64,000 nt of DNA from Winogradskyella aurantia (GTDB taxonomy: Bacteria > Bacteroidota > Bacteroidia > Flavobacteriales > Flavobacteriaceae): contig NZ_NGJN01000001.1 in NCBI RefSeq assembly GCF_002266855.1, positions 558,001-622,000 on the forward strand. The letters are read 5' to 3'. The translations under genes and the position numbers were made by a program. Below the pieces are notes generated by a model. It was not told the DNA's origin. It made no database searches and saw nothing but the letters and a program-made list of their open reading frames with translations. Below are positions 3,312 to 44,856 of this stretch, in pieces. The stretch's first letter is position 1. Every line of letters starts with the position of its first letter.

Positions 3312-4103
3312 CTATTTTTTTTGGTCTTTTTCGATTAAAGTCGTCAGTTCAATAAAGTCTGAAACGCTTAACTGCTCTGGACGTTGCCCAAAGATAGCAT
3401 TTGCTTTTAAATTATCGGAAAGATTGAAGGTTTTTAAACTGTTGCGAAGTGTTTTGCGTCGTTGCTGAAAGCCCGTCTTTACAACCCTAAAAAATAAGTC
3501 TTCGTGACACGGTAGTTTATACTCATTTTTTCGTTTAAGAACTAACACACCTGAATCTACTTTTGGAGGAGGATTGAACACAGATGGAGGTACCGTAAAT
3601 AAGTACTCCGCATCGTAAAATGCTTGTGTTAAAACAGAAAGAATACCGTATACTTTAGAACCCTCTTTAGAGCAGATACGTTGCGCCACCTCCTTTTGGA
3701 ACATGCCGGCAAATTCGGGTATCTGTTGGCGCATTTCCAAGGTTTTAAAAACGATTTGAGACGAAATATTATAAGGAAAATTCCCGATAATAGCGAAAGG
3801 CCTGTTCTTAAATATGAGATTTAAGTCAAATTTGAGAAAATCTCTTTCATAGATTCTGTCGCTTAGGTTAAGGTAGTTGTCTTTTAGATATGCTACGGAT
3901 TCAGCGTCAATTTCAATAACGTGGGTGACCACATTTTTTTGAATAAGAAACTGGGTTAAAACACCCATGCCCGGCCCAATTTCCAATACATCCTTATAGC
4001 CGTTAAGGCTCAGGGTGTCCGCTATTTTTTTTGCGATGGTTTCATCTTTTAAAAAATGCTGTCCTAAATGTTTTTTAGCTTTGACTTGATGGTTATGGGA
4101 CAC
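3312..4103 (-). CDS. rsmA: 16S rRNA dimethyladenosine transferase
   Basis: The 263-aa product methylates the two adjacent adenosines near the 3' end of 16S rRNA using S-adenosylmethionine. The N-terminus carries the [11 protein letters not shown] signature. The SAM-binding motif [12 protein letters not shown] follows at ~40-51. The catalytic NFPYNIS tetrad is near residue 108. The C-terminal helical domain has the [11 protein letters not shown] segment that contacts rRNA. Length matches the family. It is transcribed between the DUF4286 gene and mgtE. Confidence 0.95.
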
Positions 4104-4161
4104 TATTGACTAATGGATTTTTTATAATGGTCGGTTCTAAGCTCAAGCGACCTTGTTTTGG

Positions 4162-4488
4162 TTATTGTTTAAATTCTGCGGTATATTCGTCAAGGACTTC
4201 TAATTCTGTTCTAAAGGCTAGCATTTTATCTGCAAAACGTTGTAAACCTTCTTTTCTGAGACGTTCAGCATCATCATTGTAATAATCATCCAATGCTTTT
4301 CGGCTATGCGCACGGTACTGAATGGAATACGTTGTACCTCCCATTTCTTCCTCAACCAATACCTTGGTTAACTTGGCGTCTTTAAATTTGCCAGTAGCAA
4401 GAACAAGAGGAATGTGCTCCTTAATCCAGGCTAACCATTCGCTGTGAACGGAGTCATCAATATTAACGGTTACATTGTAAATAATCAT
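4162..4488 (-). CDS. DUF4286 family protein
   Basis: A 108-aa soluble protein beginning MIIYNVTVNID. The pattern of alternating strands, the SEWLAWIKEHIP segment and YSIQYRAHS near the centre fit the DUF4286 family common in Bacteroidota, which looks like a ferredoxin-like/dimeric alpha-beta fold. No catalytic motif is visible and function is unknown. It lies 58 nt upstream of rsmA and 71 nt downstream of the TPR gene. Confidence 0.8.
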   Translation of the reverse strand: MIIYNVTVNIDDSVHSEWLAWIKEHIPLVLATGKFKDAKLTKVLVEEEMGGTTYSIQYRAHSRKALDDYYNDDAERLRKEGLQRFADKMLAFRTELEVLDEYTAEFKQ

Positions 4489-4559
4489 GAGGTGTTTTCA
4501 ATTATTCAAATCACAATACCAAAGGTAGTATATGTATCTTGAAAAGTCTGGGCTAAACT

Positions 4560-6344
4560 CTAATTTATAGAATCTCCGCGCAGCATTCTGTATTTTTTAC
4601 GCGCTTCAATGAAATAAATGCTATCCTCAAATTCAAAAATAATTTTCTCATATAGGGCTTTGGCCTCCTCAGGTTTTGCGAGCTGTAAATTATAAAGCTC
4701 AGCCAAATGGAAATGTGCGTCGTCTGCCAAAATATCCTCTGGATAGTCTTTTATAATTTGAAGATAATTGTTCTCTGCTTTGTTGAACTGTTTCTTTTTT
4801 TCAAAAAGTTTGGCTTGTTGATATAAGGCCTGATCTGTTATACTCTCACCTTTGTGTTCCTGCAAGATTTTATCGAGTAAGGCAATGGCCTGATCGGTTT
4901 TATTTTGAAAGGCGTAGAGATCGGCTTTAGCAAAATATTTAAGGGCGGTTTGGGTGCTATCCTCAAATTTATTGTCCGAAATCAATAGTTTTAAGTCCAA
5001 GGCGTCATTGGCAATTAATTGGGAAGTTGAGGATTTCAAAATCTTTAATTGCGATTCTGCCCAATCAAAATCCCCTTTGTAATAACTAGTTTTAGCCACT
5101 TTATAGCGTGCCTCCTGTGCAATAGTGCTGTTTTTTAGATTGGCTTGAATTTGGGAATAGAATATCAGTGCTTCATTAAAGCGTTCTTGTACAACTAAGA
5201 TATCTGCCAATAAAAGTTTAACCGTGGCTTTTTGAAAGTCTGAAATATTGAGATTTAAACTTTCCTTGAGAAAGGTGTTTGCTTGTTCAGTATCTTTTTT
5301 ATAAAAGGCCAAAAATTCACCATAGGCTAACTGTAGCGCTAAAGTGTTTTCTGATTTCCCAAACCCATTAAATAACGCATTGTATTTCTCATCAATGCGG
5401 TCTAAGCCTTTAGCGTCGGCCTGCTTGGTTTCAATTTCCAGAATGTATTGGTGTGCAGTTAATGCGGTACTTAAATCTTGGGTGGTTTCTAAAATATAAT
5501 TGAAGATGTCTTTAGCGGTATCATCATCACTGTCATTAAGTGCAGTGAGGGCCAACTCAATAATACGGTCTAAACTTTCAGGATTTCTCTTGTAAAGCGC
5601 CTTTTCTTGAACAAATGATTTAAGATAAGCTTTCTCTTGCACATAAAGCCAGCTCAGCATCTCGTACCAATAGGAACTTGGGTCCTCCTGAATTTTTTTG
5701 AGCAATAAGCGCCTTAAATACGTGTTGTTTTCACTCTCTCTGTTTTCAGATATAAAATCACTGATGACCCGTTTTATATTATTCAGGTAATTTGGTCTGT
5801 AGGCAATATAATCTATGTAACTGGCAAACATTTTTTCAATACGGCCTTGGTCACCATATATTCTTGCGAGCTGAATACTATAATTCTTATCCGGTGTTAG
5901 GATTTTACCTTTATCATAAACTTGTATAGCTTGCTCTAGAAGAGAATGGTCTTCAAATTTTTTAGCAATGCTGTAAATATAAATAGGTCTCTCATCAATA
6001 AAGGCAATAGCTTCCTTGTATATACTATCAGCTATTTTAAGGCTGTCTTTTAATTGATAGTTATAGCCTAACTCAACCAGTAGTGTTGGTCTACGCGTTG
6101 TCGATAGCCGTTGAACCAAGAGGTCTTCGGCCTCGTCATACTGTTCTAATTGTTGGTGGGTATCTACAACTTTATATATATAATCGGAATTGTAAGGTTT
6201 CTCTTTTAGAAGGTTTTGATAAATAATCAATGCCTTTTTAAACTCCCCGCGCTTGTAGTAACTATCGGCAAGAACTTCACTGTTCTGAGCAATTCCAGAA
6301 CAAAATGAAAGTATGAAGACTAAGGCAAATGCAAGCTTTTGCAT
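4560..6344 (-). CDS. Secreted or periplasmic TPR protein
   Basis: The 594-aa protein has a signal peptide (LAFALVFILSFCSGIAQ) and consists almost entirely of tetratricopeptide-type helical pairs, for example YYKRGEFKKALIIYQNLL near the start and the last repeats at ~470-585 (AENNYLQIIKDYPEDILADDA, HLAELYNLQLAKPEEAKALY). No enzyme domain is seen. It is probably exported to the periplasm as a protein-interaction scaffold. The closing part resembles outer-membrane-assembly or cell-division TPR proteins only in general form. Partner unknown. Confidence 0.8.
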   Translation of the reverse strand: MQKLAFALVFILSFCSGIAQNSEVLADSYYKRGEFKKALIIYQNLLKEKPYNSDYIYKVVDTHQQLEQYDEAEDLLVQRLSTTRRPTLLVELGYNYQLKDSLKIADSIYKEAIAFIDERPIYIYSIAKKFEDHSLLEQAIQVYDKGKILTPDKNYSIQLARIYGDQGRIEKMFASYIDYIAYRPNYLNNIKRVISDFISENRESENNTYLRRLLLKKIQEDPSSYWYEMLSWLYVQEKAYLKSFVQEKALYKRNPESLDRIIELALTALNDSDDDTAKDIFNYILETTQDLSTALTAHQYILEIETKQADAKGLDRIDEKYNALFNGFGKSENTLALQLAYGEFLAFYKKDTEQANTFLKESLNLNISDFQKATVKLLLADILVVQERFNEALIFYSQIQANLKNSTIAQEARYKVAKTSYYKGDFDWAESQLKILKSSTSQLIANDALDLKLLISDNKFEDSTQTALKYFAKADLYAFQNKTDQAIALLDKILQEHKGESITDQALYQQAKLFEKKKQFNKAENNYLQIIKDYPEDILADDAHFHLAELYNLQLAKPEEAKALYEKIIFEFEDSIYFIEARKKYRMLRGDSIN

Positions 6345-6403
6345 AGGGCAATTTTTGTAAATATAACAAATGGTAAATCTAGTTATTGCAAATGTTATTA
6401 TAA

Positions 6404-6433
6404 AAAATGCCTAAACATGTGTTTAGGCATTTT
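6404..6433. terminator. Stem-loop in the serS/TPR intergenic region
   Basis: AAAATGCCTAAACA pairs with TGTTTAGGCATTTT around a 2-nt centre, a 14-bp stem ending in T3 on the plus strand and T-rich on the minus strand. It lies beyond serS and the 22-codon micro-ORF and before the TPR gene start at 6344. It probably ends serS transcripts. It is weak by T-tract but strong by stem. Confidence 0.55.
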
Positions 6434-6533
6434 GACCAACAAAATAAATGTGCTATTAATCATTATTCGTTACAAATATGATTCAGTTATTCTGTTCAGG
6501 TATTGTTTTATTTTGCTATTACCAAAATGATGG

Positions 6534-6602
6534 TTAAAACAAAACCTTACTTACCATTACAACTAGTGCAAGGAGTAAAGCGATACGTTTTAAATTCTTC
6601 AT
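6534..6602 (-). CDS. 22-aa putative membrane micro-peptide
   Basis: ATG at 6602 and TAA at 6534 give MKNLKRIALLLALVVMVSKV followed by LF. A basic N-terminus (three Lys/Arg in the first six residues) precedes about 14 uninterrupted hydrophobic residues, so it would sit as a single membrane helix or signal-like segment with no mature domain. It lies alone in the 387-base gap between serS and the TPR gene (6345-6731), with the stem-loop at 6404-6433 downstream. No homology can be shown here. It could be a real micro-protein or a chance frame; the membrane-like composition favours the former. Confidence 0.4.
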   Translation of the reverse strand: MKNLKRIALLLALVVMVSKVLF

Positions 6603-6731
6603 AATAGGTCAGTTCTTTTTCGGGACTACTAACTTGAAAAAAATATCCAATAAAAACGAAGAAATGCTAATAAATTCGATAAAATGCTTTATTTTTTAAC
6701 AAATAAGGGTGGTAATTTGCCTAATGACTTC

Positions 6732-8003
6732 TTAAGAAATCATATCGAAACCTGTGTACGGAACTAGTACTTCTGGAACCTTGATGCCATTCTCTGTTTG
6801 GTAATTTTCTAAAATGCCCGCAAATACCCTGGGTAAGGCTAGGGAGCTTCCATTTAAGGTATGGCACAATTCGTTCTTGCCTTCATTGCTTTTAAAACGC
6901 AGTTTTAGGCGATTAGCTTGAAAGGTTTCAAAGTTAGAAACAGAGGAAACCTCAAGCCAGCGGTCTTGTGCCGTTGAAAAGACTTCGAAGTCATAGGTCA
7001 GCGCTGAGGTAAATCCTAAATCGCCACCACATAATCTCAATATTCTATATGGTAATTTGAGTTCGTCTAGAATCCCTTTAACATGGTTCACCATACTATC
7101 TAGAGCTTTGTAGGAGTTATCGGGATGCTCAATTCGAAGTATTTCAACTTTATCAAATTGGTGTAAACGATTCAACCCCCGAACATGGGCGCCATAACTA
7201 CCAGCTTCACGTCTAAAGCAAGGGGTATAACTCGTTAGGTGTATTGGCAAATCACTTTCATTTAAAATAGTATCCCTAAAAATATTGGTGGCAGGTACTT
7301 CTGCTGTTGGAATAAGATACAAGTTGTCTGCGGTAACATGGTACATTTGCCCTTCCTTATCGGGCAATTGTCCAGTTCCAAATCCGGAAGCTTCATTCAC
7401 TAGATGAGGTACTTGGTATTCTGTATAGCCCACCTCTGTATTTTTATCTAAAAAATAGGTGATTAAGGCGCGTTGTAACTTAGCGCCTTTGCCTTTGTAA
7501 ACAGGAAAACCAGCACCGGTGATTTTATTTCCCAATTCAAAATCAATGATGTCGTACTTTTTAGCAAGTTCCCAATGTGGTAGTGCACCCTCAAATAATA
7601 TTGGGATATCACCAGCTCTAAATGTCTCCTCGTTGTCTTCATCTGTATTTCCGGCTGGAACAACAGTGTTGGGAACGTTGGGGATTTGGTAAAGCACTTG
7701 GTTCAGTGCTTCCATTTTATCATTGAGTTGTTGCTCAATATTCTTGCTCAACTCTTTCAATTTGGATGTCCTTTCCTTTATTTTATTGGCTTTTTCTACC
7801 TCACCAGACTTAAACAAATTACCTATTTCCTTGGATAAGGTGTTGGCCTCTGCTTTTGTTGAATCCAACTCAGTTTGAAGACTTCGTCTTGATTCATCTA
7901 AGGCAATAGCCTCATTAATCATTGGGCTAGCATCAATATTGCGTTTGGCCAGACGTGCAATAACATCTTCTTTGTGCTCTCTAATAAATGCAACTTGTAA
8001 CAT
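6732..8003 (-). CDS. serS: Seryl-tRNA synthetase
   Basis: The 423-aa protein attaches serine to tRNA-Ser. The N-terminal ~110 residues form the two-helix coiled-coil arm that grips the tRNA (ALDESRRSLQTELDSTKAEA and the KELSKNIEQQL stretch). The class II catalytic core follows with the TAEVPATN serine-site segment, motif 2 (CFRREAGSYG) and motif 3 near the end (GSSLALPRVFAGILENYQ). Length is normal. It is preceded by the HTTM gene with a 90-nt gap. Confidence 0.96.
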   Translation of the reverse strand: MLQVAFIREHKEDVIARLAKRNIDASPMINEAIALDESRRSLQTELDSTKAEANTLSKEIGNLFKSGEVEKANKIKERTSKLKELSKNIEQQLNDKMEALNQVLYQIPNVPNTVVPAGNTDEDNEETFRAGDIPILFEGALPHWELAKKYDIIDFELGNKITGAGFPVYKGKGAKLQRALITYFLDKNTEVGYTEYQVPHLVNEASGFGTGQLPDKEGQMYHVTADNLYLIPTAEVPATNIFRDTILNESDLPIHLTSYTPCFRREAGSYGAHVRGLNRLHQFDKVEILRIEHPDNSYKALDSMVNHVKGILDELKLPYRILRLCGGDLGFTSALTYDFEVFSTAQDRWLEVSSVSNFETFQANRLKLRFKSNEGKNELCHTLNGSSLALPRVFAGILENYQTENGIKVPEVLVPYTGFDMIS

Positions 8004-8092
8004 GTCTATGATTTTGATATTCCGCCAAATAGCAGAAGGAAAACAGCCAACAAAAGTAAAAAGAATTTAAGCAGATAAAAATAAAAAGAGTT

Positions 8093-9400
8093 CTATTTTG
8101 AAGGTAGAATCCATTGGTGGTGTTTAAAATGCATCCAATGTTCAGCAGCTAAATCCACTTCTGGGTCTATAAGCTGTTTTAAGGGTTTCCCGTTTACACT
8201 GGTATAAACTCTAGCAAAAACCTTCACGGATTGCCCTTTTTCTTCATAGACCTTTTTTAGGCGTTGTGCAAACTGCCAGATAAAGTCTGGTTTTGTGCTT
8301 AAGTTGTGTTTTTGTTTTCTACTTAGATAATCATCGAGATTTATGGGAATTATCTTATTAGTGGCCTTATCAACCACCGTAAAACTCGCAGTACCATTTT
8401 TTGCCCTTAGCATCATTCGCCAGGCCAAGCGATGACCTTCTTCAGTCCAGAGCACGTCATCCTTAAAAAAATGATGCCTTAGTGGCAAAGCCACTTGAAC
8501 CAAAAAATAAATGATTAAAATACCGGTTAAAACCCTAGAGTCCCTCGGTATTATGATTTCCCCAGAATTGTAATAAGGCTTCTTTTTCAAGAATAGATTT
8601 TTGATGGTTTTAGGATCAAAAAAGAATAGACAAAAAGCTAAGGACAAAAATGGAAATATACCAATATGGAAAACGACTGAATTAAAGATATGGAAGAAGA
8701 TAGAACCAAAAAATGCCACGGTTCGAGTTGGCCTAAAAAGTAATAGGGGAATAATTAAGCCGTCAAATAATATCCCACCATAGGCTATGAAATAATGAAG
8801 GCCCTGGGTTTGTAAAACCTCACCTATTATGGGAAAGTGTGCTTTGTTTTTCATTAATAAGGCAACGACTGAGGTGTCCAGCCAATCCGGGTAAATTTTG
8901 GCAATGGAGGCATAGGTGTATAAAATAAAAAGTTGAATGACAAAGAACCATTTGCACCAACTGGGCATTGAAATTTTCTTGAGCTGCGGATTCAACTTGG
9001 CATCTATAGAGGCGTAGTGATGCGCAGGCATAAATACCATGGCAAAACTGAGAATAAAAAGAAGATAATAATGATTGTTGTAGGAGGATTTTTGCATAAG
9101 GTATGTGGCGGTCCACATAATACCGAACATCAACATACTGAAACGGTATTTGTAACCAACCATGATAAGCAGCCCAAATACACCCATGACAAGATAATAC
9201 ACATACATCCAATTGCCTGGTAGCGGCTGTAGCCATTCAAACCCAATGAAAGAAAAAGTAAATTCTGGTTCTACCATGACCCGCCTTACCCAGCCTGTTA
9301 TTATGGCTCCAACCGATTCTAAAAAACACAGAAGGCCAAATACCATTCTAAATACAACAAGACCTGAATTGTCTATATGTTTAAATAGAAACCTATTCAT
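8093..9400 (-). CDS. HTTM-domain, vitamin K-dependent gamma-carboxylase-like membrane protein
   Basis: The 435-aa protein has several membrane helices over residues ~1-300 and a soluble C-terminal part. The segment YASIAKIYPDWL (Lys near residue 168) resembles the AGVKKLDADW region of human gamma-glutamyl carboxylase, where a Lys is the catalytic base; this alignment was made by eye. Bacterial HTTM proteins are widespread in marine Flavobacteria, and their substrate is generally unknown. Its start overlaps the end of ribF by 8 nt, so the two are cotranscribed. Confidence 0.75.
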   Translation of the reverse strand: MNRFLFKHIDNSGLVVFRMVFGLLCFLESVGAIITGWVRRVMVEPEFTFSFIGFEWLQPLPGNWMYVYYLVMGVFGLLIMVGYKYRFSMLMFGIMWTATYLMQKSSYNNHYYLLFILSFAMVFMPAHHYASIDAKLNPQLKKISMPSWCKWFFVIQLFILYTYASIAKIYPDWLDTSVVALLMKNKAHFPIIGEVLQTQGLHYFIAYGGILFDGLIIPLLLFRPTRTVAFFGSIFFHIFNSVVFHIGIFPFLSLAFCLFFFDPKTIKNLFLKKKPYYNSGEIIIPRDSRVLTGILIIYFLVQVALPLRHHFFKDDVLWTEEGHRLAWRMMLRAKNGTASFTVVDKATNKIIPINLDDYLSRKQKHNLSTKPDFIWQFAQRLKKVYEEKGQSVKVFARVYTSVNGKPLKQLIDPEVDLAAEHWMHFKHHQWILPSK

Positions 9401-32526: not shown

Positions 32527-32604
32527 GCTTATAATAAGCAGGGGTTCGGTTACATGTTTTAAATGGGGGTAATTTTTTGGCAATCGTTTTGTGTTTATAA
32601 TAAG

Positions 32605-32622
32605 TTTACATTAACTTAACGT
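32605..32622. promoter_or_regulatory. Weak 11-bp-spaced repeat upstream of the Na/Pi gene
   Basis: TTTACAT-N4-TTAACGT on the plus strand reads ACGTTAA-N4-ATGTAAA on the minus strand, a two-unit version of the repeat seen at 38349-38398. It lies 38 bp before the Na/Pi start but in opposite orientation, so support is limited. Confidence 0.3.
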
Positions 32623-32659
32623 TGAAGCAACACAAACAAAATGGCCATTAGTATTAACC

Positions 32660-34423
32660 ATGATTAAAAAGTCAGTCTTTATAGGGTTATTAGGGGCGCT
32701 AGCGGCGTCACTTTATGCCTATCCCAACTTTAAGACCATAGCTGCAGGAATCGCTATTTTACTATTTGGTATGGTTTTACTTGAAGAAGGCTTTAAGTCA
32801 TTTACAAAGGGACCGCTTCAAAAGATCTTAAAAAAGACAACGAATAAATTATATAAAAGTATCACAGCAGGAGCCTTCGTGACAGCTATTATTCAGTCTA
32901 GTTCATTGGTGACTGTTATAGCGATTTCTTTTATAAGCGCAGGACTCATCTCATTGTCTGGAGGTATCGGTTTAGTTTTTGGAGCCAATATTGGTACTAC
33001 GGCTACAACGTGGTTGGTTGCAGCCTTTGGCTTAAAAATAAAAATAGCAGCACTGGCAATGCCCATGCTAATTTTTGGAATTATTTTTTCCCTTCAAAAA
33101 AAATTATCTCTTAAAGGTTTAGGAAATGTACTAGCTGGACTAGGATTTTTCTTCCTCGGTATACACTATATGAAGGAAGGTTTTGACGTCTTCAAAACCT
33201 ATATAGACTTATCCCAATACGCGGTTTCGGGATTTTTAGGTGTAATTATTTATACGGGTTTAGGTATAATCATCACTACAATATTACAATCTAGCAGTGC
33301 GACACTAGCGCTTATCTTAACGGCTTTATCTGCGGGCCAAATAGAATACGAAAATGCCTTAGCCCTCGCCATTGGGGCAAATGTTGGCACAACGATAACT
33401 GCGGTTTTAGGTTCTTTGGGCTCTAACGTTGCTGGAAGACGACTAGCAGGAGCCCATTTTATCTTCAATATAATCACAGGGATTGTGGCCTTGGCTCTAA
33501 TCTATCCTCTAGCGAATTTGGTTGATCGAATATCTGAATTGGTGGATATTGCAGCGACTAACTACACCTTAAAATTGGCGGTGTTTCATACCATTTTCAA
33601 TGTCTTAGGCGTCATTATAATGATTCCGTTAATTAAAACCATTGAGCGTATTTTGCTCAAGTTCTTTAAAGAGCAAAAAGATAAGGATATCGATGAGCCA
33701 AAATACCTTAATGCAGCGGTATTAAAGTTTCCTGGTTCTGTTATTTCCGCATTGATGAATGAATCAAAATACTTATATAAAAATGCCATCTTTGAAATTG
33801 TGGCGCATGCCTTAAATATTCATAGAATGGATATAAAGTCTGATGAAAAAATTAAGGATATTGTTAAAAAATCACATCGAGGCTTCAATATAAATATTGA
33901 AGAGATGTATTATAAAAAAGTAAAACACATCTACGGTGAAATTATAAAATATGCCACTACGGCTGAAAAGGATTTAAAGCTTAATGCGAGGCAAATAAAT
34001 ACCATTTTAGATATTAAAATTGCCAATCGCAGAATGATTGAAATTATAAACCACGCCAAGGAGTTAAACAAGAATATCAACTTGTCCCTAAACCAAGATA
34101 ATAAGTACGTAGTACAGGAATATGATGGATTTAGAAAGAAAGTTACGAAAGTACTACGTATTATATACTTATTCAGAAAGGCGGAAGATTCTGAAATCTA
34201 TGCTAAAAAGTTGGCCCAACTAAAAAAGGAAGCTAAAGAAAACATTAGATATAGCAATAAGTCTATAGATCGATTAATCAGAAAGGATTTAATCAATGCT
34301 GAAATGGCATCTTCTTTATTTAACGATAACACGAATGTAAATGAAATCAATAAAAAACTGATTGAAGTTGCGGAATTGTTATACGGTAAAAAAGACACCT
34401 TACTAGAGACTCAGAACGTATAG
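32660..34423 (+). CDS. Na/Pi cotransporter family protein with PhoU-like tail
   Basis: The 587-aa inner-membrane protein has two inverted transport repeats, each with the NaPi-II signature QSSS (IIQSSSLVT and ILQSSSATL), and GANIGTT/GANVGTT motifs. Membrane helices cover residues ~1-330. The C-terminal ~240 residues are soluble and helical, resembling a PhoU-like domain. It takes up phosphate with sodium, or senses or exports it. It opens a phosphate-related region that includes a PiT permease and a TonB receptor. Confidence 0.9.
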   Translation: MIKKSVFIGLLGALAASLYAYPNFKTIAAGIAILLFGMVLLEEGFKSFTKGPLQKILKKTTNKLYKSITAGAFVTAIIQSSSLVTVIAISFISAGLISLSGGIGLVFGANIGTTATTWLVAAFGLKIKIAALAMPMLIFGIIFSLQKKLSLKGLGNVLAGLGFFFLGIHYMKEGFDVFKTYIDLSQYAVSGFLGVIIYTGLGIIITTILQSSSATLALILTALSAGQIEYENALALAIGANVGTTITAVLGSLGSNVAGRRLAGAHFIFNIITGIVALALIYPLANLVDRISELVDIAATNYTLKLAVFHTIFNVLGVIIMIPLIKTIERILLKFFKEQKDKDIDEPKYLNAAVLKFPGSVISALMNESKYLYKNAIFEIVAHALNIHRMDIKSDEKIKDIVKKSHRGFNINIEEMYYKKVKHIYGEIIKYATTAEKDLKLNARQINTILDIKIANRRMIEIINHAKELNKNINLSLNQDNKYVVQEYDGFRKKVTKVLRIIYLFRKAEDSEIYAKKLAQLKKEAKENIRYSNKSIDRLIRKDLINAEMASSLFNDNTNVNEINKKLIEVAELLYGKKDTLLETQNV

Positions 34424-35868: not shown

Positions 35869-38151
35869 CTAGGATTTCTTTTTGGTATTGTCGGTAATGA
35901 CCTTGGCAGGTTCAACCGTGCTATCATGAGCACTGAAGTATTCTTCGAGTAAATTCATGGTAGCTTTCAAAAGGTCTTTGGTTTCTAATAGTAGGCTAAA
36001 ATAAAGCGTTGTGTTTTTAGGACTTGAATCCTCATTTCTTGTGCGCTCAACCTGCATGGCTATTTTATTCCTAACCAAATTAAATATTTCTGATTTGTCT
36101 TGTAGAATTGCACCTATTTCTTCAAATGAACGGGATTCAAAGGCAGATTGTGTTGCAATGAACAGTGTTTCTAGGTGTTGGTCAAGGTCCTTGAGCTCCT
36201 TAATTTGACTAAATTTTAGCTTTTTATGGTTATTGTTTACATACTTGAGACTGACCTTGGAAATGTATTCGAGAGATTGTGCCATATCCTGAAGGTAATT
36301 CAGAATGTCGAGATAAAAATTACTTGCAGATAAACTGGGCTCATCAAGGTTTTTTATGAAGTAGAAAATATTATCTCTAAGGTCATCTACCTCAGCTGAA
36401 AGTTTTTCGACTTGTTTTTTATTCTTTTTTAGGACAGAAAGGTTTTGCGTGGCCAAACCATTAATGGCATTAGAATAAATTCTGTTACCGCGCTTTACAA
36501 CGTTAGCAATATTAGAAGCACTTTCATGAATCACACCTTGTGTAGAACTGCTTTCTGCTTTTTCTAATTTATCCTCCTCCTTTAAGACCTTGTTATTTTT
36601 TCGATGTGTCAAGTAGTTTTTAGAAATCATGACCAAGGCAAAAGCAAACAGACCAAACAAGGCATAGGCCTCACCGTAAAAGAGTATATAGGCCATTACT
36701 AGAGCGGCTGTAAATGCGCTGAAGGCTGTAAAGAACCACCCACCAATAACATTGAGTACTCCAGCTACCCTGTACACGGCACTTTCAGTACCCCAAGCCC
36801 GATCTGCTAAGGAGGTTCCCATGGTGACCATAAAGGTAACATATGTAGTGGAAAGAGGTAATTTCATTGATGTAGCAATTGAAATCAGAACGCTCGCCAC
36901 CATTAAGTTTACCGCGGCTCTAACTAAATCAAAGGCGGGCGCGTCTTGGGGCTTTACTATCAACTGAGGTTGTGTGAACTGTCGGTTGGCCCAGTCTTTA
37001 TAGGCACTTGGCAAAATGGTATTCAGACTAGCAGACAACCCAATGGATAATCTCACAATATTTCTAGATAGAAAATTGGGCTCAAAACGTTCTTTACCGT
37101 CATCCTGTCGCGCTAAATCAACGGAGGTTTTTACAACAGCTCTTGCTTTGCTGGAAAACCACAAAGTCAAAACCATAACTAATCCGGCAATCAGAAGCAA
37201 GATAGGTTCTGTTTGAACGGGCTCACCTAGAGCGGTCATTACAAAGTTTGATGCTTCTACACCACTGTTAGACCACACCTCATAAGAGTTGTAAGCAGCG
37301 ATAGGAACGCCGATAAAGTTCACTAAATCGTTACCAGCAAAGGCTACGGCAAGTGCAAAGGTACCAACAACTATGATAATGGTATAAATTTTAGCATTCA
37401 AAAGTTTAACAGCTAAAAAAGAAATTAACGCAAAAATGACGAAACTGACTTCGATGAAATAAATGGGGTGATCATTTAGAAAGGATAATATAGAATCGTC
37501 GATAAATGTTGCATTTTTCAATCCTTTAATGATGATAAAGTACATTATCGACGTTATTGCAAAGCCACTGAAAATAGAGCCATACCAAATCGGTTTGTCT
37601 TGAAACTTAAACGACAATAATAATCTTGAAACATATTGAACAATAGCTCCAATGGTAAATGCTACTACCACAGACAAAAGGATGCCTAAAATAATTTCAA
37701 TAGCCTTAGAATTGTTAATATAATTGGTTAAATCCGTAATATTCTGGCCTTCATCCATGTAAATTTTTATGGCTGCCATTGCAACCGAGGCCCCTAACAA
37801 TTCAAAGACAATAGATACGGTAGTAGAGGTTGGAAGGCCAAGCGTATTAAAAAAGTCAAGGAGAAGAATATCCGTAAGCATAACGGCCATGAAAATAATC
37901 ATGATCTCGTTGAACATAAACTCCCCAGGATTAAAGATGCCTTTTCGTGCTACCTCCATCATACCACTAGAAGTCAGTGCGCCAACAGCAACTCCTAGGC
38001 TAGCCACAATCATAATAGTTTTAAATGGAACGGCCTTAGAGCCGATAGCTGAATTTAAAAAGTTAACAGCATCGTTGCTAACACCAACAACCAAATCTGC
38101 AACGGCTAAAAAAGCCAATGCACCAAGCATGTAGATATAAAGATTCTCCAT
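35869..38151 (-). CDS. PiT-type inorganic phosphate transporter fused to a PhoU-like domain
   Basis: The 760-aa protein is longer than most PiT permeases. The two PiT signatures are visible: GVSNDAVNFLNSAIGSKA near residue 24 and FAGNDLVNFIGVPIAAYNS near residue 270. About ten membrane helices cover ~1-520. The last ~225 residues are soluble and helical (NGLATQNLSVLKKNKKQVEK, LDILNYLQDMAQSLEYISK), resembling PhoU. It probably couples Pi transport to a built-in sensor or gate. ATGTTA repeats at 38204-38220 lie 53 bp upstream of the start. Confidence 0.9.
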   Translation of the reverse strand: MENLYIYMLGALAFLAVADLVVGVSNDAVNFLNSAIGSKAVPFKTIMIVASLGVAVGALTSSGMMEVARKGIFNPGEFMFNEIMIIFMAVMLTDILLLDFFNTLGLPTSTTVSIVFELLGASVAMAAIKIYMDEGQNITDLTNYINNSKAIEIILGILLSVVVAFTIGAIVQYVSRLLLSFKFQDKPIWYGSIFSGFAITSIMYFIIIKGLKNATFIDDSILSFLNDHPIYFIEVSFVIFALISFLAVKLLNAKIYTIIIVVGTFALAVAFAGNDLVNFIGVPIAAYNSYEVWSNSGVEASNFVMTALGEPVQTEPILLLIAGLVMVLTLWFSSKARAVVKTSVDLARQDDGKERFEPNFLSRNIVRLSIGLSASLNTILPSAYKDWANRQFTQPQLIVKPQDAPAFDLVRAAVNLMVASVLISIATSMKLPLSTTYVTFMVTMGTSLADRAWGTESAVYRVAGVLNVIGGWFFTAFSAFTAALVMAYILFYGEAYALFGLFAFALVMISKNYLTHRKNNKVLKEEDKLEKAESSSTQGVIHESASNIANVVKRGNRIYSNAINGLATQNLSVLKKNKKQVEKLSAEVDDLRDNIFYFIKNLDEPSLSASNFYLDILNYLQDMAQSLEYISKVSLKYVNNNHKKLKFSQIKELKDLDQHLETLFIATQSAFESRSFEEIGAILQDKSEIFNLVRNKIAMQVERTRNEDSSPKNTTLYFSLLLETKDLLKATMNLLEEYFSAHDSTVEPAKVITDNTKKKS

Positions 38152-38203
38152 ATGAGAGCGAAGCTAAAAGTAATTGCAAATTTCTTCTTTTAATTTGAAC
38201 GTT

Positions 38204-38220
38204 ATGTTATCGGAATGTTA
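38204..38220. promoter_or_regulatory. Two ATGTTA repeats at 11-bp spacing, upstream of the PiT gene
   Basis: ATGTTA at 38204 and at 38215, with a further ATGTTC (38220) and ATGTTG (38233) out of phase. Read toward the PiT gene the motif is TAACAT. It is part of the repeat family described at 38349-38398. Confidence 0.4.
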
Positions 38221-38348
38221 TGTTCTTTGGTTATGTTGAAATGAAAAAAGTTCTTATAATTTATTTTTAGAGTCGCTTAGCCAATATACCAAGATATTAT
38301 TATGGTTATAAATAGTAATATACTGAAAGTCAGTATATAACGTTCTCA

Positions 38349-38404
38349 ATGTTAAATTAATGTTACCTAAATGTTGTTTAAAAGTAAAATATATGTTATG
38401 TTTG
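38349..38404 (+). promoter_or_regulatory. PHO-box-like phased repeats with an overlapping promoter
   Basis: ATGTTA (38349), ATGTTA (38360), ATGTTG (38371), a degenerate AAGTAA (38382) and ATGTTA (38393) are spaced by exactly 11 bp. The TTG of the third unit (38374-38376), a 20-bp spacer and TATGTTTG (38397-38404) make a full flavobacterial promoter 27 bp before the small MORN-like gene. Direct repeats overlapping the -33 position resemble a PhoB-type activator site. Confidence 0.6.
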
Positions 38405-38430: not shown

Positions 38431-38793
38431 ATGAACATGAAAAAAGCAGTTGTTATAATCGTTATGCTGTGTGTAGGATTTGTATATGCTCAGAAAGAAA
38501 GAGACCTAAGTCTAAATACTGACAAGGATTTAATAGAAGTGGTGTATTACCATGATAATGGTACAATAAGTCAAACCGGTTATTATACGAAGGAAGGCAA
38601 ATTACATGGAGAATGGTTTACCTATTGCCAACAAGGGAATAAACTGGTTTCCGCCAAGTATGATAATGGAAAGAAAGTAGGCAAGTGGTTTTATTGGACT
38701 AAGGATACTTTAAAAGAGGTGGACTATAGTAATAATCAAATTGCCTCTGTTAATGAGTGGACCAATAGTAAAACAATAATAGCTTCTAATTGA
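38431..38793 (+). CDS. Secreted MORN-repeat-like small protein
   Basis: The 120-aa product has a signal peptide (VVIIVMLCVGFVYAQ; the second Met at codon 3 is an equally likely start). Three degenerate MORN-like units follow: VVYYHDNGTISQTGYYTKEGKLHGEW, then KLVSAKYDNGKKVGKWFYW, then a partial one. Such repeats are common in Bacteroidota periplasmic or surface proteins of unknown role. It is monocistronic, with a strong promoter carrying PHO-box-like repeats and a terminator 40 nt after the stop. Confidence 0.75.
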   Translation: MNMKKAVVIIVMLCVGFVYAQKERDLSLNTDKDLIEVVYYHDNGTISQTGYYTKEGKLHGEWFTYCQQGNKLVSAKYDNGKKVGKWFYWTKDTLKEVDYSNNQIASVNEWTNSKTIIASN

Positions 38794-38831: not shown

Positions 38832-38865
38832 AAAAAACCCGCTTGGATTTCCAAGCGGGTTTTTT
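38832..38865. terminator. Strong bidirectional terminator
   Basis: AAAAAACCCGCTTGG (38832-38846) pairs with CCAAGCGGGTTTTTT (38851-38865) around ATTT. It separates the plus-strand MORN-like gene from the convergent lipoprotein gene. Confidence 0.95.
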
Positions 38866-38895: not shown

Positions 38896-41703
38896 TTAGT
38901 TATCAATCCAACCAAAGTCAGCTTCTAAAGTGGTAGAAGAATCGTAGGTTGTGGCTTCATTGGCAGCTGCTCCATCTATTACTAATTCTGCGGCAGTTGA
39001 AGTTCCAGCAAACTCAAACTGAAGTGCATACCCAGTAAGCGTCAAACCGTTGATTGTGGCAGTAGACGCCGCTTTCATTTGAATTGCTAATCCACCTGTT
39101 GACGAAATTGCAGTAAAGTTTGTTAATGTTGGGTTACTGGCTGTACCATCCGCTTCAATAGAAGTGGAGAAACCAGTAATCGTTTGCTTAACAAAAGTAT
39201 TCGCTAATGTTCCATTCCAGCCTTCAGTCCAGTCTACTGAATCGTCTTCAATATTCTCAGCGTAGAAATTAGTAACACTAACAGTTCCACCAAAGAATTC
39301 TATACCGTCATCAGCACCGTCGATGACGGCAACGTTGTCTATTGTTGTCCCAGAACCTACAGCGTAAAGCGATAAACCGTTAAACTGAGAATCAGCGTTG
39401 ATTTGAGCTCCAGTATTTCTTAGGATTAGGTAGTCGATGTTACCTGAAGATTCAGTAGGACTATTTCCTCCATAAACTAATCCACCAACTTCAGCGGTCA
39501 CATTTTCACCGGCTGTTGTTGTAGAATTTCCACAGATTAAAAGACCACCCCATGGGTTACCATCATCAGAGCGCATCTCTACTGGATTCATCATCGAACC
39601 TTGAATGTCAATAGAACCACCTTGTAATACAGCTAAATAGTTTGCAGTTCCTGAAGCAGAAACGATCTCTGTTCCAGCAGGTATTGTTAAGGTTGCACCA
39701 GAGTTTACTAATACAGGACCGCTGATTGTGTATATAACGCTAGGATCCAAAGTTAAATTTGAAGTGATGTTAGCTGGCAATTGATCTGATACAAGATCGC
39801 CAGTTGCCCAAGCAAAGTTACTTGCATTTGTTGGAGATGACGAATAAACTGCATCGTTTGCTGTATCTGCAGCTGCACCATCTATTACTAGTTCAGCAGG
39901 AGTAGAAGTCCCAGCAAACTCGAATAAAAGATCAAAACCAGTTGCCGTGAATCCATTTATTGTAGCGGTAGACGCGGCTTTCATTTGGATTGCTAAACCA
40001 CCTGTAGAAGAAATAGCAGTTAGGTTATTCAACGTTGGGTTACTAGCAGTACCATCTGCTTCGATAGCGGTTGAGAACCCTTGAATAGTGTTAACAATAT
40101 AAGCCGTATTCATAGTACCATTCCAACCTTCAGTCCAATCAATGGCATCGTCTTCTATGTTTTCAGCGTAGAAATTAGTTACACTTACAGTTCCACCAAA
40201 AAATTCGATACCGTCGTCAGCACCAGAAATTACAGCAACGTTACTAATCGAAGTTCCCGATCCAACTGCATAAAGTGATAATCCATTAAATTGAGAATCC
40301 GCGTTGATTTGAGCACCAGTATTTCTTAAAATAAGGTAATCTATGCTACCAGAAGATTCAGTGTCATTGTTACCACCGTAAACCAGACCACCAACTTCAG
40401 CAGTTACATTTGTTCCTGCCGTTGTAGAAGCGTTACCACATACAAGTAAACCACCCCATGGATTTCCATCAACAGAACGCATTTCTACTGGATTGTCAAT
40501 AGTACCTTCAATTTCTATAGAACCTCCTTGTAAAACAGCTAAGTAATTTGCAGTTCCAGATTCAGAAACGATTTGAGTTCCAGCAGGAATTGTTAATGTA
40601 ACTCCTGAATTTACTAATACAGGTCCACTGATTGTGTATTCCACAGAAGGATTTAAAGTAACATCGGCAGTGATATTCCCAGGTAATTGATTGCTGTCAA
40701 AGGCATCAGTTGCCCATGCGAAATCACTCGCATTAGTTGGCGAACTTGCATAAACTGCATCCTCTGCAGTATCTGCAGCGGCACCGTCTATTAACAATTC
40801 TGCAGCTGTAGAAGTTCCTGCAAATTCAAAAAGAAGATCAAAACCTGTTGCAGTAAATCCGTTGATTGTAGCGGTAGAAGCTGCTTTCATCTGAATAGCT
40901 AAACCACCAGTAGAAGAAATGGCGGTAAAGTTTTCAATTGTAGGGTTACTTGCTGTACCATCAGCTTCAATGGCAGTAGAAAATCCTTGAATTGTATTAA
41001 CCACATAGGTGTCAGATAAAGTACCATTCCAGCCTTCTGTCCAATCTACTGCATCGTCTTCGTTATTTTCTAAATAGATATTACTTGCATTAACAGTACC
41101 TCCAAAGAACTCAACTCCGTCATCAGCACCATTAATGATAGCTACGTTAGTGATTGAAGTTCCAGAGCCAACTGCATATAATGATAAACCGTTGTACTGA
41201 GAATCGGCATTGATTTGTGCACCAGCATCTCTTATGATTAAGTAGTTTATGCTACCAGAGTCATCACTTGCATTTGTTCCTCCGTAAACCAAACCACCTA
41301 CTTCTGCTGTGACGTTTGTTCCAGCAGTTGTTGGGGCATTACCACATAATAAAAGTCCACCCCATGATCCGGCGTTGCCACTTGAAGATCTCATGACCAC
41401 TGGATTAGAAGGCGTTCCTTGGATGTCTATCATTCCCCCTTGTAGAACAGCCAGATAGTTTCCAGTTCCAACTGCAGATACTATTTCTGTTCCTGCTGGA
41501 ATGGTTAAAGTTACTCCATCTGCCACTCTTACATCTCCAGAGAGGTTGTAAGTAATATTAGGATCGAGTGTCAAGTCTGCTGTTATAATTCCATCCAGAC
41601 CTTGACTTGGTGGTCCTCCTCCTCCATCATCATCGTTGTTACACGATAATATAGCTAATGACAGAATCATTGTAAAAATAAAATTGATGTTAATTGTTTT
41701 CAT
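38896..41703 (-). CDS. Lipoprotein with three ~300-residue tandem repeats (beta-helix type)
   Basis: The 935-aa protein has a lipoprotein signal (LSLAILSCNNDDDGGGG, Cys 21). Three near-identical units follow at about 38-339, 340-640 and 641-935. Each opens with an ITADLTLDP-like strand, then VTLTIPAGTEIVS, NYLAVLQGG, GGLVYGG, INADSQFNGLSLYAVGSG, DDGIEFFGGTV, DWTEGWNGT and ADTA. The regular short strands suggest a right-handed beta-helix on the cell surface. It lies 33 nt after the TonB receptor gene and must be its operon partner, perhaps as a substrate-capturing lipoprotein, although it is not SusD-like. Confidence 0.8.
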   Translation of the reverse strand: MKTININFIFTMILSLAILSCNNDDDGGGGPPSQGLDGIITADLTLDPNITYNLSGDVRVADGVTLTIPAGTEIVSAVGTGNYLAVLQGGMIDIQGTPSNPVVMRSSSGNAGSWGGLLLCGNAPTTAGTNVTAEVGGLVYGGTNASDDSGSINYLIIRDAGAQINADSQYNGLSLYAVGSGTSITNVAIINGADDGVEFFGGTVNASNIYLENNEDDAVDWTEGWNGTLSDTYVVNTIQGFSTAIEADGTASNPTIENFTAISSTGGLAIQMKAASTATINGFTATGFDLLFEFAGTSTAAELLIDGAAADTAEDAVYASSPTNASDFAWATDAFDSNQLPGNITADVTLNPSVEYTISGPVLVNSGVTLTIPAGTQIVSESGTANYLAVLQGGSIEIEGTIDNPVEMRSVDGNPWGGLLVCGNASTTAGTNVTAEVGGLVYGGNNDTESSGSIDYLILRNTGAQINADSQFNGLSLYAVGSGTSISNVAVISGADDGIEFFGGTVSVTNFYAENIEDDAIDWTEGWNGTMNTAYIVNTIQGFSTAIEADGTASNPTLNNLTAISSTGGLAIQMKAASTATINGFTATGFDLLFEFAGTSTPAELVIDGAAADTANDAVYSSSPTNASNFAWATGDLVSDQLPANITSNLTLDPSVIYTISGPVLVNSGATLTIPAGTEIVSASGTANYLAVLQGGSIDIQGSMMNPVEMRSDDGNPWGGLLICGNSTTTAGENVTAEVGGLVYGGNSPTESSGNIDYLILRNTGAQINADSQFNGLSLYAVGSGTTIDNVAVIDGADDGIEFFGGTVSVTNFYAENIEDDSVDWTEGWNGTLANTFVKQTITGFSTSIEADGTASNPTLTNFTAISSTGGLAIQMKAASTATINGLTLTGYALQFEFAGTSTAAELVIDGAAANEATTYDSSTTLEADFGWIDN

Positions 41704-41736: not shown

Positions 41737-44631
41737 TTAAAATTTATAGGATAAGTTTAAACTAATATTTACTCCTCTTTTATAGGATAGTACAGTCTCC
41801 TCTTGGGTCGCAGAAGAGTTACCAAAATCAGATGCTACATTTTGATATCGTTCGATTTCTGGATTCAATAGGTTCCTTCCTCTCAAACCTAAACTGATAT
41901 GTTTATTAATGCTTTTATTAACTATGAAATCAAGAACGACAAACCCCTTTTCGATAATTTCACCGTTAAAATTGAAGTCTTCCAGATTGTTCCCTGGACT
42001 ATTTGGATCTTCACCTTGAAATATTGGAGAGCCAATTGCGTAAATGCGATCGGATGCGTAATTACCTGCTAGAGTGAACTCAAAAGGATATTTATTACCT
42101 GTATCTAAGGTCAATGCTAAATTTGTAGTCCAGTCTGATGCTCCTTCAAGTCCTATTTCGTCATTACCGCCATATTGAAATGTTCGTGGCGAACCATTAA
42201 CGTTTAAACCTTCAGAAGCATCTTTTAAATCCTGCTTATGGTCTATGTAAGACACATTTCCAGAAAGTTTAAGATTTGGTAACGAGTCACGCTTTTTGAT
42301 TAAAAAAACTTTCCCTTCCAATTCAATTCCAAATATGCGAGCGTCACCAGTATTATAAAAAGAAAATACGTCACCACCGCCCACACGAAGCGATCTGTTT
42401 ATCGCGTTATCTATATTCTTGTAATAAGCGGTTACAGAAATGAGCTCATCATTAGAAGGAAAGAATTCATATTTTAAATCTATATTAGTATTGGTCGAAC
42501 GTTCAATAAGTCTATTACCCGCTTCAATTAAACCTTCAGGAGATACGTATTCAAAAGGAGCAATCTCTTTAAACTCGGGAAGTGTTTGGCTTAAACTACC
42601 GGAAAGCCTTAACGCCATTTTATCGTTGAGATCGTATTTTAAATTTAATGAAGGATAGATGTTGTTGTATGTCAATTCTGTTTCACCCTCACGTCCACCA
42701 GGTGCATTATTTACATCGTAATCAACAAAAATCCTATCGCTTTGATATCTTAAACCTACCTCCGCAGTTAAATTGCCAAATACACCTACAAAATCAACGA
42801 ATCCCGCATAAGATGTTAATTCGGCATCGTAAAAATCATCTGGTTGAACGTTGATTAACAAATTTCCATTGTCAACATTTTGCTGGGTGAAAGCAGAACT
42901 TAAATCATCAATTGATACCGGATTAAACGACCCAATAGGTCCGCCTTCTTCAAATCCTACAAAAGTAGATCTGAAGTCTCTTTGTTTATATCTTCCGTCA
43001 CCACCAAAACTTAACTTATAAATATCATTCTCATCTTCATCAACTTTTAAGCTGAAGTCATCTTTTATCCTACCGTTAAATTCTTGGTCTAAAATTTCTT
43101 GAGAGCTTTTTCTTTGCTGAAACCCCCCTGTATTACCTAATTCTATTGGTCTTTCGTCTTGAGGTACACCATCAACGTTTCTAAAATTCAATTCATTTCT
43201 AATACGGTTGGGCTCATCTGCCGCCAAGCGATTATACCCTAAAGCCCAATCTAATTCATTTTTAGTACCCAATTTATGATCACCGATTAATTGTATGGTA
43301 GACAAAAACGTGTTCTTGATGTTTTGATCCCTAACAAATTGATTACCAGCTATGGAATTTGGCGTTAATTCATCAAAAAAGATAGCCTCGCCACCCCGGC
43401 CACCTTCATAGACTTCTTCTAATACCTTATTAATACCAAAAGCATTGAACTTAAGCTCGTTATTTTGGTTTATTCTATATTGTCCAACAAGAAGGGCATT
43501 AGTATTGACTGTTCTTTGCCAATATCTGTTATCGCCATCAGGCACAAAATCCCTAGCACCACCTGTAATCGGTAATAAACTTCCGGTAATTCCTCTATCG
43601 AAAAATCTGAATAAACCTTCACGGTATTCGTTGTCCACACTTTGGCCTCCAGCGAACGAAAGTCTAAACTTTCCTTCTTCATCTAAAAAACCACCAGCAT
43701 TAAATCCAAATGAATAGTTTACGGGATTTTCTATACCGACAGTATTCCAGCCTTGGTCAGTCAAACCATTAACTAAATTACTGTTATTGTAAGGTCTGGA
43801 GAATATGCCAAAGCTCAAATCATCATTTAGAGCTGTTGCTGCAAAATTATCCGTTACAAACACCGCATTTGTATTGAGACCGCTTGACAGACTTATACCA
43901 AAGTCTTTGCGAGAGGTGATGTTTTTCGAAGTTATGTTTATATTACCAGACGACTGATCGGTGGAGTTGTATGGTGAAAAAGTTTTACTAATAGATACAC
44001 TACTAATAAATCTTGTAGGAAAAAGCTCAAGATTTATATTCTTTTTGTCTATGTTGTCTGATGGTATAGGAAGACCATTCACTGTTGTAGTAAGATATCT
44101 ATCTCCCAAACCTCTCACGTAAATTTGACCTGAACCTTCTGATTTGGAAACCCCAGATATTTTTGCTGTTGCTGCTGAAGCATCACTAACACCTAATTTA
44201 GCGAGTTCAATAGCTCCAATACTTTCCTTTATCTCAACAGCCTTTTTTTGATCAAGTAAAAGCGCAGCTTCACTTTCTTTTCGCGTAGATGTTGTAATTA
44301 CAATTTCATCAAGACTTGCCGAGCTCGCTCCCATTGGAACATTTACTGTAGTAACCTTACCAGCCACCACTTCAGCTTTGATTTCAAGGGTTTCGTAGCC
44401 TACAAAACTAAAAACTAGAGTATAGACTCCTGGACTTAATTCGTTGAATTCATACAGACCGTCAACATCGGATGTTGTTCCTGTAGTTGTTCCTTTTATT
44501 AATATATTGACAAAAGGAAGCGGTTCGTTATTAAATTCTTTATCTGTTAAAAGGCCAACTATAGAACCTGTTTGTTGTGCAGAACATAATATACTTGAAA
44601 AACAAAAAATTAATAGGATTATGCGTTTCAT
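41737..44631 (-). CDS. TonB-dependent receptor with carboxypeptidase-regulatory-like domain
   Basis: The 964-aa outer-membrane receptor has a signal peptide (to ~19), a carboxypeptidase-regulatory-like beta domain (~22-105, SIVGLLTDKEFNNEPLPF), a plug (~130-240, SGQIYVRGLGDRYLTTTVNG), and a barrel ending NISLNLSYKF with a terminal Phe. It has no STN domain, so it is not expected to signal through FecR. It is cotranscribed with the triple-repeat lipoprotein. The surrounding phosphate transporters suggest a phosphorus-containing substrate, which is only inference. Confidence 0.88.
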   Translation of the reverse strand: MKRIILLIFCFSSILCSAQQTGSIVGLLTDKEFNNEPLPFVNILIKGTTTGTTSDVDGLYEFNELSPGVYTLVFSFVGYETLEIKAEVVAGKVTTVNVPMGASSASLDEIVITTSTRKESEAALLLDQKKAVEIKESIGAIELAKLGVSDASAATAKISGVSKSEGSGQIYVRGLGDRYLTTTVNGLPIPSDNIDKKNINLELFPTRFISSVSISKTFSPYNSTDQSSGNINITSKNITSRKDFGISLSSGLNTNAVFVTDNFAATALNDDLSFGIFSRPYNNSNLVNGLTDQGWNTVGIENPVNYSFGFNAGGFLDEEGKFRLSFAGGQSVDNEYREGLFRFFDRGITGSLLPITGGARDFVPDGDNRYWQRTVNTNALLVGQYRINQNNELKFNAFGINKVLEEVYEGGRGGEAIFFDELTPNSIAGNQFVRDQNIKNTFLSTIQLIGDHKLGTKNELDWALGYNRLAADEPNRIRNELNFRNVDGVPQDERPIELGNTGGFQQRKSSQEILDQEFNGRIKDDFSLKVDEDENDIYKLSFGGDGRYKQRDFRSTFVGFEEGGPIGSFNPVSIDDLSSAFTQQNVDNGNLLINVQPDDFYDAELTSYAGFVDFVGVFGNLTAEVGLRYQSDRIFVDYDVNNAPGGREGETELTYNNIYPSLNLKYDLNDKMALRLSGSLSQTLPEFKEIAPFEYVSPEGLIEAGNRLIERSTNTNIDLKYEFFPSNDELISVTAYYKNIDNAINRSLRVGGGDVFSFYNTGDARIFGIELEGKVFLIKKRDSLPNLKLSGNVSYIDHKQDLKDASEGLNVNGSPRTFQYGGNDEIGLEGASDWTTNLALTLDTGNKYPFEFTLAGNYASDRIYAIGSPIFQGEDPNSPGNNLEDFNFNGEIIEKGFVVLDFIVNKSINKHISLGLRGRNLLNPEIERYQNVASDFGNSSATQEETVLSYKRGVNISLNLSYKF

Positions 44632-44652: not shown

Positions 44653-44741
44653 CAAAGTAACTGTGATTAACCTGTTCTAAGGTTAATCATGAATTAAACA
44701 TTTGTGATGAAAAGGTTAGTGGAATGTTAGCGCAATATTAA
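44653..44741 (-). promoter_or_regulatory. Promoter region of the TonB receptor operon
   Basis: On the minus strand a -7-like TTACTTTG (44653-44660) lies ~22 nt before the start. Upstream are ATGTTTA-N4-ATGATTA (44684-44701, 11-bp spacing, same orientation as the gene) and, on the plus strand, AGGTTAG-N4-ATGTTAG-N4-ATATTAA (44713-44741). An inverted repeat GATTAACCT-N6-AGGTTAATC occupies 44665-44688. A specific regulator is likely, but which repeat it uses is open. Confidence 0.5.
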
Positions 44742-44856
44742 AATGACGTGATATTAAGGAAACAATAAGATAACATTGGAGCTGTACTATGGGCATTCAT
44801 TTTTATAAGGTATTGTATACCATTTTATCTATCTTGCACGGTCTAATATTTTTAGT

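Follow-up and report, generated by a model that had tools for sequence, protein, structure and literature searches.

Within the 64-kb window, by which we mean the whole stretch of DNA that was analysed, pit lies divergent from a small gene, with the gene for a Na/Pi cotransporter on the far side of pit and those for a beta-helix lipoprotein and a TonB-dependent receptor beyond the small gene (Table 1). The small-gene product has a weak PDB match to the N-terminus of SET7 and weak MORN-type matches, and its predicted fold (mean pLDDT 84) begins with a signal helix, after which comes a beta meander; on these grounds we describe the protein as MORN-like and probably exported. The small gene and the beta-helix gene converge on a strong inverted repeat, AAACCCGCTTGGATTTCCAAGCGGGTTTTTT at 38835-38865, which resembles a terminator that could serve transcripts from either side.

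Table 1. Genes, repeat arrays and promoter elements of the window
Feature	Position	Strand	Details
Forward PHO box of Na/Pi cotransporter	32597..32633	+	TTACAT, TAACGT, CAACAC
Na/Pi cotransporter	32660..34423	+	PF02690
pit, PHO4-family phosphate transporter	35869..38151	-	760 aa; Pfam PF01384
-7 element of pit, GAAATTTG	38177..38184	-	8 bp after degenerate third unit; lacks a TTG at -33
Forward PHO box of pit	38193..38220	-	TAACAT, TAACAT and degenerate third unit TCAAAT, 11-bp steps
Reversed PHO-box array of small gene	38349..38398	+	five 11-bp units; minus strand reads TTAACAT-N4
-33 element TTG of small gene	38374..38376	+	inside unit 3; TTG in 49/65 orthologues at same position
-7 element of small gene, TATGTTTG	38397..38404	+	full match to TAnnTTTG; conserved block of promoter logo
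Small MORN-like protein, predicted exported	38437..38793	+	118 aa; ORF from 38431; conserved start MKK at 38437
Beta-helix lipoprotein, downstream of TonB receptor	38896..41703	-	position of Fjoh_0546 (pectate-lyase-like)
TonB-dependent receptor	41737..44631	-	same Pfam domains as Fjoh_0545
-7 region of TonB receptor, GTTACTTTG	44653..44661	-
Forward multi-unit PHO array of TonB receptor	44680..44740	-	TAATAT, TAACAT, TAACCT, TCACAA, TAATTC, TAACCT
Separate box pointing to dGTPase gene at 44857, GGAAACAATAAGATAACATTGG	44749..44783	+	in second-best model region of genome

The intergenic region between pit and the small gene contains two repeat arrays. The one beside the small gene reads ATGTTA at 38349 and 38360, ATGTTG at 38371, a degenerate AAGTAA at 38382 and ATGTTA at 38393, in exact 11-bp steps. 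An earlier sequence-only reading of this DNA had claimed five ATGTTA-like units at this spacing, the third of them providing the TTG of a -33 element, and when the sequence was read again by eye and by script all five starts and the TTG inside unit 3 were confirmed. The second array, at 38193-38220, was absent from that reading's list. In the 38349 array, some 7 conserved bp are repeated head to tail in 11-bp steps, as they should be in a PHO box, and it is the only start in the window of a five-unit ATGTTA run with at most three mismatches; when 300 sequences of 64 kb were simulated with a first-order Markov model, no such run arose in any of them. The two-unit word, counted over the whole genome, is not enriched (41 matches vs 58 for a reversed-pattern control), so that a bare count of the word is uninformative, and the evidence lies instead in array length, context and conservation.

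Arrays and phosphate genes across Flavobacteriaceae

To place the window among its relatives, 80 homologous loci from many genera of Flavobacteriaceae were compared. The small-gene array keeps a single register in about 15 named genera, and in the promoter logo it appears as four conserved units, ATGTTA, ATGTTA, ATGTTG and ATGTAA, followed by TAtaTTTG. Unit 5, at 38393, which shares bases with the -7 element, is retained in only part of the genus, and the widely conserved array is therefore one of four units. A pit-proximal pair is found in 74/79 pit loci, lying in nearly every case some 48-70 bp ahead of the start of pit, with a conserved GATATTTGC, the pit family consensus of the -7 element, downstream of it, while many orthologous promoters of the TonB receptor carry five 11-bp units. 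Sites related to the box at 44749-44783 recur at 39 of the examined dgt loci, which suggests that the dGTPase belongs to the phosphate regulon.

Two-unit matches were counted in the 300 bp upstream of these gene families and of 694 other genes. Forward matches precede pit in 61/88 cases, the porin gene in 30/47, the TonB receptor in 24/80 and the Na/Pi cotransporter in 4/16, and the small gene has 65/67 reversed matches, against 9/694 forward and 6/694 reversed for the other genes; as controls, nrdA gave 0/54 and dxs 1/38. The sequence-only reading had suggested that these repeats might be the recognition site of a flavobacterial PhoB, an idea to be abandoned if matches were no commoner upstream of phosphate genes than elsewhere; the idea survives this test, since the arrays cluster upstream of phosphate genes and are seldom seen at other genes. 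A weight matrix gave 78/88 for pit, 42/47 for porin and 67/67, reversed, for the small gene; as it was trained on the pit and porin pairs, independence from the training set holds only for its small-gene, TonB and Na/Pi counts. For the five gene families the spectrum of spacings shows a sharp 11-bp peak; for the other genes it is flat.

A held-out sequence model, built from 25 porin promoters that all come from other genomes, was run over the whole 3.2 Mb genome. Its three best matches are three intergenic regions, all inside the window: the 38349 array (E=1.2e-5), the TonB/dGTPase region (E=0.003) and the Na/Pi promoter (E=0.017). The fourth-best, C1:205387, falls inside an ORF and was rejected. 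Nor did we retain the perfect two-unit sites at C13:187478, C16:32307 and C17:150183, which adjoin genes with no obvious link to phosphate and number about as many as the three or so roughly expected by chance. The second of these, spanning C16:32299-32329, is flanked by a TonB receptor gene and by a small gene, the start of which it overlaps, and could possibly be an extra member of the regulon or a chance match.

The box is thus found upstream of phosphate-acquisition genes and is rare elsewhere. The exception is formed by the PhoX homologues, relatives of the most strongly Pi-induced phosphatase of Flavobacterium johnsoniae; their upstream regions are mostly without a box, so that the phosphate response as a whole cannot be put down to it. 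Relatives with a high-affinity phosphate system carry it as a porin O/P-pstSCAB-phoU operon, which is preceded by a box in the genomes G032, G007, G059 and G031, with pit nearby in several, and in one locus (L180) the box-bearing porin-pst operon is divergent from a small gene with a reversed array, a layout like that of the window. No PstS-type protein of family PF12849 was found in the present genome, and the porin-pstSCAB-phoU operon, kept beside pit and the small gene in some relatives, may have been lost from it. Outside Flavobacteriaceae, a phylum-wide PstS search, many of whose matches were PstS-like proteins in ExbB/ExbD-like clusters, gave only one weak site (L254), and for this reason we make no claim beyond the family; since all of the conserved loci come from this one family, they are not independent of one another.

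In the same family, F. johnsoniae has a PHO regulon in which phoBR adjoins the genes for a TonB receptor and for a pectate-lyase-like lipoprotein, and Pi depletion induces these two (PMC8115612). The receptor, Fjoh_0545, rises by 8.0 log2 and the lipoprotein, Fjoh_0546, by 9.9 log2, both being listed as Pi-depletion-induced (PMC8115612, Table 1 for Fjoh_0545), and the TonB receptor and beta-helix lipoprotein of the window match this pair in domain content and order. The main text of that paper describes no PHO box (PMC8115612). Among the open-licence papers to which our literature search extended, we found no PHO box for Flavobacteriaceae.

The 38349 array, composed of head-to-tail 11-bp units, very probably serves as a PHO operator in Flavobacteriaceae and would be bound by a candidate PhoB. 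The PhoP word of Bacillus consists of TTAACA-type repeats, and the B. subtilis PhoP box has nearly the same word and spacing as the arrays described here, with several units per promoter, although it belongs to a different phylum with different sigma recognition. The PHO box of E. coli PhoB likewise has two or more direct repeats of 7+4 bp at 11 bp, and the forward class of arrays further resembles it in lying just upstream of a -10-like element and standing in for the -33/-35; however, the word is TTAACAT rather than CTGTCAT, the -7 element is of the Bacteroidota type, and the 38349 array is reversed over an intact promoter (PMC4415409). That the repeats spell a different word from the proteobacterial boxes, as the sequence-only reading had it, is mainly an effect of strand, ATGTTAA being the reverse complement of TTAACAT, but a true difference from the CTGTCAT-type heptamer remains.

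Two promoter classes and the direction of control

The consensus of Bacteroidota housekeeping promoters is TTG, about 20 bp and TAnnTTTG. The small-gene promoter agrees with it exactly, as the TTG at 38374-38376 is followed by 20 bp and then by TATGTTTG at 38397-38404. Among 50 small-gene promoters with TAnnTTTG, a TTG stands 18-22 nt upstream in 40, and in 37 of these cases the distance is exactly 20 nt. The promoters with forward arrays are built otherwise: a TTG 18-22 nt upstream of a recognised -7 element was seen in 0/48 pit, 0/41 porin and 0/31 TonB promoters, against a background chance of 0.11. In 43/48 porin promoters the last unit is followed by an 8-bp gap and the -7 element, and the arrays of the TonB promoters and, at pit, the degenerate third unit agree with this gap. 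At pit, porin/pst and TonB the box therefore replaces the -35/-33 element upstream of the -10/-7, as in an activator-type PHO box, and the lack of a -33 together with the 8-bp gap is what would be expected if PhoB~P recruits sigma to these promoters. The 38349 array, in contrast, is reversed over an intact -33/-7 promoter, and we file it as a putative PHO operator that is not an activator-type PHO box. Of the earlier proposal of a flavobacterial PHO box, the operator and its occurrence at phosphate genes stand, whereas the ordinary activator site merged with a promoter has to be given up.

Based on this arrangement, we propose that PhoB~P would bind the 38349 array in low phosphate. The forward promoters of pit, porin-pst and TonB would need PhoB~P, which would recruit sigma there; the promoter of the small gene would be self-sufficient, and PhoB~P bound to the reversed array would hide its -33 element and spacer. 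The gene for the small exported MORN-like protein would then be active under ample phosphate and repressed under phosphate scarcity, whereas pit and the TonB operon would respond the other way round. Because the small-gene promoter keeps TTG-N20-TAnnTTTG under the reversed array, repression by PhoB~P is our preferred reading, and on balance we lean towards PhoB~P acting on the small gene in this way, by blocking the -33 element and spacer. In B. subtilis, PhoP~P represses tagAB (PMC6232261), a precedent for repression by a regulator of this kind.

It is also conceivable, though we rate it as rather doubtful, that PhoB~P at the same operator activates the small gene, with units 1 and 2 serving as the activator site and orientation being irrelevant. 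In the promoter logo, conservation is highest at units 1 and 2, and their place upstream of the -33 element would suit an activator, but units 3 and 4 cover the -33 and the spacer, and the orientation of the array is invariant among the small-gene orthologues. The neighbouring genes are of the Pi-starvation type, and in F. johnsoniae low Pi raises phoB itself by about 3 log2 (PMC8115612) even though in relatives the array beside phoB points away from the gene, so that a reversed array need not mean repression. It also speaks against activation that the small-gene promoter keeps both a -33 and a -7, whereas every class with a forward box is without the -33.

If repression is the correct reading, a single PhoB~P event would flip the divergent pair, turning pit on and the small exported MORN protein off. 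More generally, and only tentatively, we suggest that the sign of control in Flavobacteriaceae may depend on which way the same PHO array faces, a forward array without a -33 activating and a reversed array over a complete promoter repressing; the two promoter classes bear directly on whether operator orientation determines activation or repression. With a defined word, spacing and promoter geometry, the regulon should become predictable in any flavobacterial genome, and phosphate scavenging by Flavobacteriaceae matters in both seas and soils.

The candidate binding protein and the owner of the array

A PhoB-like candidate is encoded at C1:32635-33318 on the minus strand, adjacent to a PhoR-like kinase. 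It has the architecture of PhoB, a receiver and an OmpR-type winged helix (PF00072 + PF00486), and its two best curated matches are the PhoB models TIGR02154 and NF053854, with 215.7 of 296.2 and 211.2 of 270 bits, respectively, both below the curated cut-off; the best matches of the kinase are PnpS/PhoR models, again below their cut-offs. The candidate is present in 368/399 genomes of the family. Sites upstream of phoB reach threshold in 22/29 phoB loci, that of the present genome being only borderline (score 10.4), and in one locus (L271) pit, both boxes, the small gene, the beta-helix and TonB genes, a further box, phoB and phoR form a single cluster. In another (L287 of genome G462, positions 3900-8333), phoB-phoR, boxes, a porin-like gene, pstS and pst permease genes follow one another in one run, an arrangement that would connect PhoB with the box in a natural way.

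From this gene neighbourhood we infer that PhoB is the protein that binds the arrays. In Bacteroides fragilis, a member of the same phylum but of a different order, PhoB binds the pstC promoter in a mobility shift, and a search of passages from that study turned up no binding word (PMC3547664). Another OmpR-family regulator could take the place of PhoB, given that several response regulators are encoded in the genome, that matches to the PhoB model extend over the full length of the model in three of them, and that the candidate stays under the model cut-offs. We regard this as improbable, as the arrays occur at pst, pit and porin O/P and beside phoB in the majority of loci just counted, the L287 run joins phoB-phoR, boxes and porin-pst, and the best curated matches of the candidate are PhoB models.

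With regard to the gene that the array serves, the reversed array is present in 65/65 orthologous small-gene promoters, the window included, and nearly always lies about 80 bp before the start codon. In loci where a Porin_O_P gene (PF07396) stands between the small gene and pit, the array remains beside the small gene. The distance of array to small gene thus stays at about 80 bp even with a porin gene intervening, and by this comparison the 38349 array is assigned to the 118-aa MORN-like gene at 38437 and not to pit. A distant upstream operator of pit, the TTAACAT orientation of which would face pit and which has the same minus-strand orientation as pit's own box, is very unlikely, since the distance to pit varies from about 200 to 360 bp, and exceeds 1.5 kb with the porin gene between, while that to the small gene is steady. 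Least credible of all is an origin by chance or as AT-rich phased DNA, bending or UP-like, that acts without a specific protein: the region is AT-rich and single two-unit matches do arise by chance elsewhere in the genome, but the simulated windows contained no such array, conservation is specific to word and orientation with variable letters between the words, and the promoter logo, the enrichment at phosphate genes and the ranking by the held-out model all disfavour it.

Apart from the array, the small-gene promoters contain a second conserved block, at 38327-38340 in the window and in homologous promoters, with the consensus AAATCAGT...TTA, which lies about 10-22 bp upstream of the array in many loci.
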